Source of the DNA: Treponema sp.
GTDB taxonomy: Bacteria; Spirochaetota; Spirochaetia; Treponematales; Breznakiellaceae
NCBI GenBank assembly: GCA_031255875.1
Contig: JAIRRR010000307.1
Span: forward strand, 1-11,772
DNA: 11,772 nucleotides
Reading direction: 5' to 3'
The notes below the pieces were generated by a model that made no database searches, was not told where the DNA came from, and saw only the letters and a list, made by a program, of their open reading frames with translations. Of this stretch, positions 6,633 through 11,411 are shown one piece after another. Every line of letters begins with the position of its first letter. Position 1 is the stretch's first letter. The position numbers and the translations under genes were made by a program.

Positions 6633-6769
6633 TTTTGGGCGCATCCGTCCGCCCCGCGTGCCGTCCTGCGGTACGCGGGGCGGACGGACCGGGCTATCCG
6701 CTCTTATACCATGGGGCGGGAAACCCGCCCCATGGTATACCGCTTCTATCCCTTGCGCGGGGCTTCGCC
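6633..6769 (+). repeat. Two-hairpin repeat element, copy 1
   Basis: This 137-bp unit recurs inverted at 11275-11411 without indels and with 11 mismatches (126 of 137 identical). It begins TTTTGGGCGCATCCGTCCGC. Hairpin A spans 6644-6688: 20-bp arms, loop TCCTG, one G-T pair. A 16-nt joint CCGGGCTATCCGCTCT follows and is identical in both copies. Hairpin B spans 6705-6739: perfect 16-bp arms TATACCATGGGGCGGG and the complement around an AAA loop. A tail CCGCTTCTATCCCTTGCGCG follows. It lies 71 bp past the stop of the upstream gene and 66 bp before the -35 box of clpS. No transposase is nearby. It is best described as a REP/MITE-like palindromic element; its function is unknown. Confidence 0.9.
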
Positions 6770-6840: not shown

Positions 6841-7233
6841 TCAGGCGCTGAGGCTGAATACCGCCCCGGCGGTTGACGGGGGCGCGGGCCGGTAAGGCAT
6901 GGCGGTGTTGGCCGCCCGCGCCGCCCGGATCTGGGACTCGTACTGTTCGATCAGGGCGTCGATCTGTTCATCGGAAAGGGCGTCCGTTGTAAGCCCGGCG
7001 TCGGGCTTTTTTTTGATCCGGGCAAGCTGCTCGATAAGCACGTCAAGAATCTTGAGCTTGCTGATGGCCACGCCCCTGCTGCCCTCGGGGGCGGGAACGC
7101 CGGAAACATGGCGGAAATGGGAATAAATATAGGCCGAGGGGGCGACGGGCAGGGACATTTTCCCGCCTGCCGATGCGTTAATCGCGTAGCCGATGCTTGG
7201 AAAAGCGGATGTTCGCAGGATACCGCCGACCAT
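6841..7233 (-). CDS. Small conserved-looking protein of unknown function
   Basis: I do not recognise this 130-residue protein with confidence. The N-terminal 30 residues are rich in Ser, Ala and Gly with no clear signal peptide. The middle contains YIYSHFRHVSGVPAP and GVAISKLKILDVLIEQLARI, the latter predicted helical. DALSDEQIDALIEQYESQIR then forms a second helix, followed by a Pro/Ala-rich tail. The order of polar and hydrophobic residues looks like a real cytoplasmic helical protein and not a shadow frame. The start is ATG at 7233: AAGAGGAGAG lies 8-9 nt upstream, whereas the in-frame TTG at 7239 would sit too close to that site. It is transcribed away from the FecR-like gene and toward clpS. 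A sigma-28-like promoter is possible upstream, which would hint at a motility-linked role. Confidence 0.72.
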   Translation of the reverse strand: MVGGILRTSAFPSIGYAINASAGGKMSLPVAPSAYIYSHFRHVSGVPAPEGSRGVAISKLKILDVLIEQLARIKKKPDAGLTTDALSDEQIDALIEQYESQIRAARAANTAMPYRPAPPSTAGAVFSLSA

Positions 7234-7257
7234 GATCAATCTCTCCTCTTGTTTGTA

Positions 7258-11274: not shown

Positions 11275-11411
11275 GGCGGAGCCCCGCGCAAGGGATAGAA
11301 GCGGTATACCTTCGGGCGGGTTTCCCGCCCGGAGGTATAAGAGCGGATAGCCCGGTCCGTCCGCTCCGTGTGCCGCAGGGCGGAACGCGGGGCGGACGGA
11401 TGCGCCCAAAA
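11275..11411 (-). repeat. Two-hairpin repeat element, copy 2 (inverted)
   Basis: This is the reverse complement of 6633-6769 with the same 137-bp length. Hairpin B is at 11305-11339: 16-bp arms, TTT loop, one T-G pair on the plus strand. Its variable triplet differs from copy 1 on both arms: ATG/CAT in copy 1 becomes TCC/GAA here. Hairpin A is at 11356-11400, with two T-G pairs and one G-A mismatch on the plus strand. The 16-nt joint and both flanks are conserved. It lies 67 bp after the AMMECR1 stop and 48 bp before the murE start. Both copies occupy gaps between minus-strand genes but point in opposite directions relative to transcription, which argues against a dedicated one-way terminator. 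No target-site duplication is obvious. Confidence 0.9.

Follow-up and report, generated by a model that had tools for sequence, protein, structure and literature searches.

Gene setting of an inverted repeat pair

The window, by which we mean the whole 11,772-nt stretch of DNA analysed, is contig C94 of G000, a 1.91-Mb assembly in 319 contigs that is 76% complete. We take it to be that of a spirochaete, probably a treponeme-like one. Pfam domains found in it are those of UvrA, leucyl/phenylalanyl-tRNA transferase, a Clp-type AAA protein, ClpS, DUF2804, a Mur ligase and AMMECR1, together with a sub-threshold match to FecR. Two copies of a 137-nt unit lie between these genes in inverted orientation. 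Copy 1 is located between clpS and a small gene without a Pfam match (6841-7239, encoding a protein of 132 amino acids), and copy 2 between the AMMECR1 gene and the Mur ligase gene, here called murE. The Rfam family Flavo-1 matches copy 1 on the minus strand and copy 2 on the plus strand; with all four neighbouring genes encoded on the minus strand, copy 1 reads in the direction of its neighbours (sense) and copy 2 against that of its own (antisense). The parts of both copies, named according to the predicted fold, are as follows.

6633..6769, minus strand: copy 1 in Flavo-1 sense, 137 bp
6683..6768, minus strand: match of copy 1 to Rfam RF01705 (Flavo-1), 37.4 bits, curated cut-off 42
6761..6769, minus strand: P0, small 5' hairpin GGC-GAA-GCC
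6754..6758, minus strand: 5' strand of P1, GCGCA
6691..6752, minus strand: P2, short helices with purine-rich internal loops between them and hairpin B as cap
6705..6739, minus strand: hairpin B, the apical part of P2, a variable palindrome
6644..6688, minus strand: hairpin A (P3), 45 nt, a variable palindrome outside the Rfam model
6639..6643, minus strand: 3' strand of P1, TGCGC, followed by CC and an A-rich flank
11275..11411, plus strand: copy 2 in Flavo-1 sense, 137 bp
11276..11361, plus strand: match of copy 2 to RF01705, 40.6 bits, curated cut-off 42
11286..11290, plus strand: 5' strand of P1
11292..11353, plus strand: P2, with hairpin B at 11305-11339
11356..11400, plus strand: hairpin A
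11401..11405, plus strand: 3' strand of P1

The two copies are 92% complementary and differ by 11 substitutions without gaps, five of them in hairpin A, five in hairpin B and one in the small 5' hairpin. The original prediction, a pair of equal length with 11 differences, ten of which fall within the two hairpins and none in the 16-nt joint between them, agrees with the alignment. So does its claim that an ATG/CAT pair of triplets in hairpin B is replaced by TCC/GAA with pairing kept but for one T-G wobble: on the Flavo-1 strand A-T becomes T-A, G-C becomes C-G and T-A becomes the T.G wobble. Among the hairpin A differences, several of which had been taken for wobble pairs, two are C to T changes opposite G and form G.T wobbles on the Flavo-1 strand; the remaining four differences fall on positions that the predicted fold leaves without a partner, three of them within hairpin A and one in the loop of the 5' hairpin. 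The 30 nt outside each edge of both copies appear unrelated. Chance similarity and a larger duplicated block were both rejected, as homology stops at both edges and many further copies exist.

Compared with dinucleotide shuffles, copy 1 folds with z-scores of -8.1 and -8.6 on its two strands and copy 2 with -4.4 and -6.5, and none of 200 shuffles folded as well as either copy on either strand. The predicted energy of copy 2 is clearly better on the Flavo-1 strand than on its complement (-87.4 versus -73.1 kcal/mol), while the strands of copy 1 are about equal (-91.0 and -93.8 kcal/mol). In both copies the Flavo-1 strand is predicted to form a short 5' hairpin followed by a GCGC:GCGC helix around two arms. 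The short helix closing a junction around both hairpins, and a fold better kept on one strand, go beyond what had been proposed for the pair.

Relation to Rfam Flavo-1

An Rfam scan of the window at the curated threshold gave no match. In a search of 401 bases, the minus strand of copy 1 spans positions 1-76 of RF01705, that is, the full model (E 1.5e-6), with the conserved internal-loop letters and pairs present. Both copies score under the curated 42-bit cut-off (37.4 and 40.6 bits), and we therefore call them below-threshold relatives of Flavo-1. Assembly G000 holds 16 Flavo-1 matches at E<=1, of which three exceed the cut-off with 52-54 bits and one is doubtful; copy 1 aligns to these three passing copies by BLAST with E values of 2.4e-22, 1.4e-20 and 1.5e-7. 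The original prediction of a dispersed family in place of one recent duplication is supported by the further copies in the assembly and its relatives. That of an undescribed family of this lineage is not: hairpin B matches RF01705, the core is related to Flavo-1, and it also occurs in relatives and in a second, distant genome group, taken to be Bacteroidota.

Flavo-1 was graded in 2010 as probably RNA and probably not cis-regulatory, in Bacteroidetes (Weinberg 2010, PMC2864571). Matches in Flavobacterium psychrophilum were reported to occur 'indistinctly' in either orientation, sense or antisense, to transcribed regions, with many outside such regions, which gave no clue to function (PMC9723704), and a 2022 review places the family among abundant sRNA families without function (PMC9029176). 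In the titles and abstract openings of the papers found, with few subscription journals among the sources, Flavo-1 is not described as mobile or as a three-way junction.

In a distant genome with only two Flavo-1 matches (G037), one match lies upstream of clpS (locus L250, from position 1245) and shares the sense orientation of window copy 1 (6683-6768); this may be coincidence or a shared old site.

Extended architecture and covariation

A single core is visible in 15 of the 16 Infernal matches of G000 and in 56 of 60 copies fetched from three relatives. Its usual frame consists of an optional P0, GCGCA, AGGGATAGAAGCGG, hairpin B, AGCGGATAGCCCGG, hairpin A and TGCGCCC, with a longer P0 in many copies of the relatives G001 and G019. 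In the modelled fold, hairpin A belongs to the unit and helix P1 (GCGCA:TGCGC here) closes a three-way junction. The frame is kept with other P1 helices, for example GCGTG:CACGC, GCATG:CATGC, GGGTT:AACCC and GCGCC:GGCGC, in more distant spirochaete relatives and in the phylum of a Saprospiraceae contig (taken as Bacteroidota). Flavobacterial-type copies (n=57) mostly read TAGCCC...GGGAAATAGCTCC, have no hairpin A and show a possible, invariant P1, AGC:GCT.

All 73 copies with GCGCA have TGCGC downstream and are therefore uninformative on covariation. Among the 18 copies that lack both GCGCA and the flavobacterial form, an exact downstream complement occurs in 12, compared with a mean of 3.0 and a maximum of 8 in 1000 shuffles; with four letters in place of five the signal is weaker (14 of 18 versus a mean of 7.3 and a maximum of 13), and these shuffles, like those for P2, ignore the relatedness of copies. 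The six misses are L085, probably a locus without a true element, L144 and L158, spirochaete copies with a changed 5' strand opposite TGCGC, two stretches at L210, and L212. Five P2 positions are Watson-Crick paired in 144, 146, 147, 146 and 143 of 148 distinct copies, the respective shuffle maxima, wobble included, being 95, 89, 93, 136 and 126; collection by the Rfam model may favour P2-paired copies, and hairpin A and P1 lie outside that model. One P2 pair uses all four Watson-Crick combinations (AT 84, TA 51, GC 9, CG 3) with a single mismatch. Control column pairs stayed within the shuffles in four of five cases, and the fifth was slightly above them (50 versus a maximum of 49). Covariation across many copies, which had been proposed as a check, is thus strong, and it supports the original prediction that the structure is under selection.

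The arms vary most: 141 copies of hairpin A comprise 123 distinct sequences, 98 of which are perfect palindromes over the outer six pairs. How near-perfect palindromes arise in ever-changing sequence is a question that these arms pose. Their scored helices contain 1228 Watson-Crick pairs, 13 G.T, 6 A.C and 24 others. The excess of G.T over A.C (13 to 6, p 0.17; pooled with P2, 19 to 7, p 0.03) is a weak sign that the Flavo-1 strand may be the folded one. G.T is less common in P2 (6 of 740) than G.U is in tRNA stems at those loci (9 of 189, with p 0.0008 by Fisher's test), a comparison of nine tRNAs with model-selected P2 copies; this is a weak sign in favour of DNA over RNA.

Conservation, judged by eye in 35-40 copies of G001, 14-15 of G000 and only 5 of G019, extends beyond the unit for about 40 nt on the upstream side and for a few nt on the downstream side. 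A larger parent element was rejected for this reason.

A long form missed by Rfam

Some copies keep P1, the P2 base and hairpin A and carry GGATWGGAGGGG...CCCC with a multi-hairpin domain in place of the P2 apex. The interior of this long form is built of recurring hairpin modules, combined differently. An Rfam search of five long-form loci returned no Flavo-1 match; its single hit to another family was at chance level. N4-N7, the P2 pair for which all four Watson-Crick combinations occur, is kept in 46 of 47 long-form copies, and these were recognised by sequence patterns and not by the Rfam model. A search for a 19-base signature of the long form, tolerating at most one mismatch, found it in 59 of the 291 genomes of the order, with 15 places in G000, 162 in G001 and 88 in G019, against two matches in all for the reversed signature; one mismatch admits short forms, so these counts are upper bounds for the long form. 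At least 12 of the G000 places are exact and one of those listed is a short form, all 13 places listed for G012 are short forms, and among the 30 of the 59 genomes with listed places 24 have an exact match.

In G001, a hairpin-rich repeat of about 150 nt is nested inside the long form (L424 and L194).

Distribution and turnover at orthologous sites

Short-form matches were found in 24 of 58 genomes, G000 included, at E<=0.01, and in 23 of 198 genomes of the second phylum, taken as Bacteroidota, at E<=1e-5. Within one family the copy number ranges from 0 or 1 up to at least 67; this value, for G001, and those of at least 22 for several Bacteroidota are Infernal counts that equal the number of candidates scored and are hence lower bounds. 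One 121-base flavobacterial query had no match in plasmid and phage collections and two patterns had none in viral contigs, and the frame was found in none of 14 viral contigs with the 16-base long-form pattern. Such absence would be odd for an active element, though these few queries were run without a positive control.

Orientation to genes, based on rough gene finding, was scored for 55 copies (70 loci minus 12 without a recognisable core and 3 duplicates): 19 are antisense to both neighbours, 11 sense to both, 16 lie between divergent and 8 between convergent genes, and one was left undetermined. A predicted open reading frame, mostly short, overlies the element at 10 of the 55 loci.

Filled and empty alleles of orthologous sites were found at two sites compared between G000 and its sister genome G001 and at two flavobacterial sites. 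In the murE neighbourhood, a pattern search of 30 murE loci, some cut by contig ends, detected the element in the window only. The aligned blocks flanking this site are 234 nt apart in the window versus 42 nt in G001, where the site is unfilled despite the at least 67 short copies of that genome. At the second site, which holds a long form in G000, G001 has 159 nt of unrelated sequence. The intergenic DNA at both unfilled sites is too diverged to align, and in the comparison of these two sites no target-site duplication or clean insertion boundary was found.

The flavobacterial sites were mapped by eye in 10 loci from 14 genomes searched, with three of the 10 unmapped at site 1 and two at site 2. 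Site 1 is filled in G126, G200, G079 and G212 and short in G115, and it is occupied by different palindromic DNA in G083, G228 and G232. Intergenic sites thus seem to accept several palindrome families. At site 2, G126 has an intact element and G200 a decayed one, and seven other genomes have none. The different palindromic repeat DNA of site 1 is that of loci L334, L335 and L337. At site 2, locus L336 (G212) has another hairpin-like element; it contains GCGGATAGC and may be one more relative of the Flavo-1 frame.

Ten orthologous groups were drawn from 14 locus pairs and compared by eye. The inner type differs between species in four of the ten aligned sets, and stems change on both sides. 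In several sets the core seems to have been preserved better than the DNA around it, which may point to a local function. The mixed orientation and the turnover at sites fit a dispersed repeat and argue against a locus-bound regulator, with local roles possible.

Nature of the repeat

We consider it probable that the family is a dispersed, non-coding, mobile structured repeat whose short form is related to Flavo-1, and this reading fits the data better than that of a regulatory RNA. The unit would fold on the Flavo-1 strand, with P1 closing the junction, P2 as an arm capped by hairpin B and hairpin A as third arm. A trans-acting factor would recognise the constant parts (P1, the P2 base, the internal loops and the A-rich 3' flank), and the hairpin arms would be interchangeable palindromes, free to turn over. 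The family would most likely spread as a non-autonomous mobile element, by means of an enzyme that recognises the folded single strand, be it DNA or RNA, and copies or inserts it into intergenic DNA; each copy would then be kept or lost site by site. What the comparisons show is covariation, dispersal, and presence or absence, replacement and decay at orthologous sites, from which active mobility, its direction at a given site and the enzyme are to be kept apart as inferred. Counting against the mobile-repeat reading are that neither an enzyme nor a target-site duplication or clean insertion boundary was found, that the core seems well preserved in several orthologous sets, and that the long form, with its many hairpins, resembles a folded RNA.

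A genuine non-coding or cis-acting RNA, with a Flavo-1-sense transcript from each copy serving as small RNA, leader or 3'-UTR structure, is favoured by the strong covariation, by purine-rich internal loops of a kind seen in structured RNAs, by the better folding of copy 2 on the Flavo-1 strand and by the pooled excess of G.T over A.C, according to which one strand may matter. It also accords with the grading as probable RNA (PMC2864571). We nevertheless hold it to be unlikely, as orientation to genes is mixed with 16 of 55 copies between divergent genes, copies are present or absent at orthologous sites, G.T in the model-selected P2 is rarer than G.U in the nine tRNAs, and a simple scan, itself a weak test, found neither a sigma-70 promoter-like nor a terminator-like site at the two window copies. 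The F. psychrophilum matches in either sense, many outside transcribed regions, point the same way (PMC9723704). A chromosomal architectural or protein-binding site, bound for instance by a nucleoid or topology protein and maintained in its copies for that role, would suit the mixed orientation, the conserved core at orthologous sites and the absence from the plasmid, phage and viral collections, for which few queries were run. The great differences in copy number between relatives (from 0 to at least 67) and the presence or absence at sites argue against an essential site, and we give such a role little credence.

Slightly less credible still is a REP-like element mobilised by a REP-associated tyrosine (Y1) transposase, the link suggested by the original prediction. 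Its intergenic, palindromic and abundant copies would fit, CGTC-tagged REPs are reported in Bacteroidetes and Spirochaetes (PMC3733652), and a Y1_Tnp domain (PF01797) occurs in 19 of 23 genomes with Flavo-1 versus 12 of 20 listed without it, one of which (G058) in fact holds a weak copy. However, no Y1_Tnp domain was found in G000, G019, G142 or G196, all of them rich in copies (G000 and G019 are incomplete), and a strict pattern detected the Flavo-1 frame in none of 40 Y1_Tnp loci, taken together with flanks of up to 1.5 kb. Moreover, the relatives richest in Y1_Tnp genes, G024 (28) and G028 (at least 62), have no Flavo-1 match at E<=0.01, and the constant frame letters contain neither GTAG nor CGTC. 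Y1_Tnp thus tracks the repeat poorly, and a Y1/RAYT transposase is not supported. The abundance of Y1_Tnp genes in G024 and G028 suggests a separate REP-like system there.

A driver gene between inverted G001 copies was sought and rejected, the spaces holding ordinary genes for MnmG, a GGDEF protein and an M20 peptidase. Elsewhere, the four neighbours that were checked encode a P-type ATPase, a penicillin-binding protein, an RtcR-like regulator and a protein without a Pfam match, and the open reading frames beside flavobacterial copies were looked over by eye only. An integron attC site was considered unlikely because copies are single and dispersed.

Going further than a mobile structured repeat, we can propose only tentatively that the family represents a previously unrecognised class of bacterial mobile element, modular and purely structural. 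Its members would consist of a fixed three-way-junction frame fitted with interchangeable hairpins and, in the case of the long form, with a whole multi-branched domain, and some enzyme would move them as a folded single strand. If so, the Flavo-1 'sRNA' of Rfam would be a fragment of such an element. The filing of the family as probable RNA in 2010 may be mistaken; its nature can be tested directly by way of the extended fold, the long form and the filled and unfilled sites.

Comparison with known systems

The window copies share the P2 letters and pairing of the Rfam Flavo-1 model. In contrast to that 76-position model, which comprises the P2 hairpin only, they have P1 and hairpin A, which would give a three-way junction, and a possible 5' hairpin P0; the family also includes a long form without an Rfam match and behaves as a dispersed repeat rather than as an sRNA. 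With REP, REPIN and BIME sequences it has in common that it is short, intergenic, palindromic and abundant and that the stems keep their palindromicity (PMC2817692). It differs from these elements, which are tied to RAYT genes, in that no linked Y1 transposase was found, in the lack of GTAG and CGTC among the constant letters and in a predicted three-way junction instead of a single hairpin.

The nearest behavioural analogue, as far as we are aware, is the palindromic GC clusters of yeast mitochondria, which like the present family are dispersed GC-rich hairpin elements; double-hairpin elements, mentioned in PMC2800124, are a related comparison. They differ in residing in organelle DNA, in their shorter units and in their flanking short direct repeats, of which none were seen around the window repeat family, and no kinship in sequence is claimed. 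Some GC clusters have a constant 13-nt end and a variable rest, with merging and shuffling, and clusters differ at homologous sites; the authors of that work lean to RNA-mediated ligation and retrotransposition (PMC4478555). If the proposed class exists, it might be regarded, by analogy, as a bacterial counterpart of the mitochondrial GC clusters.
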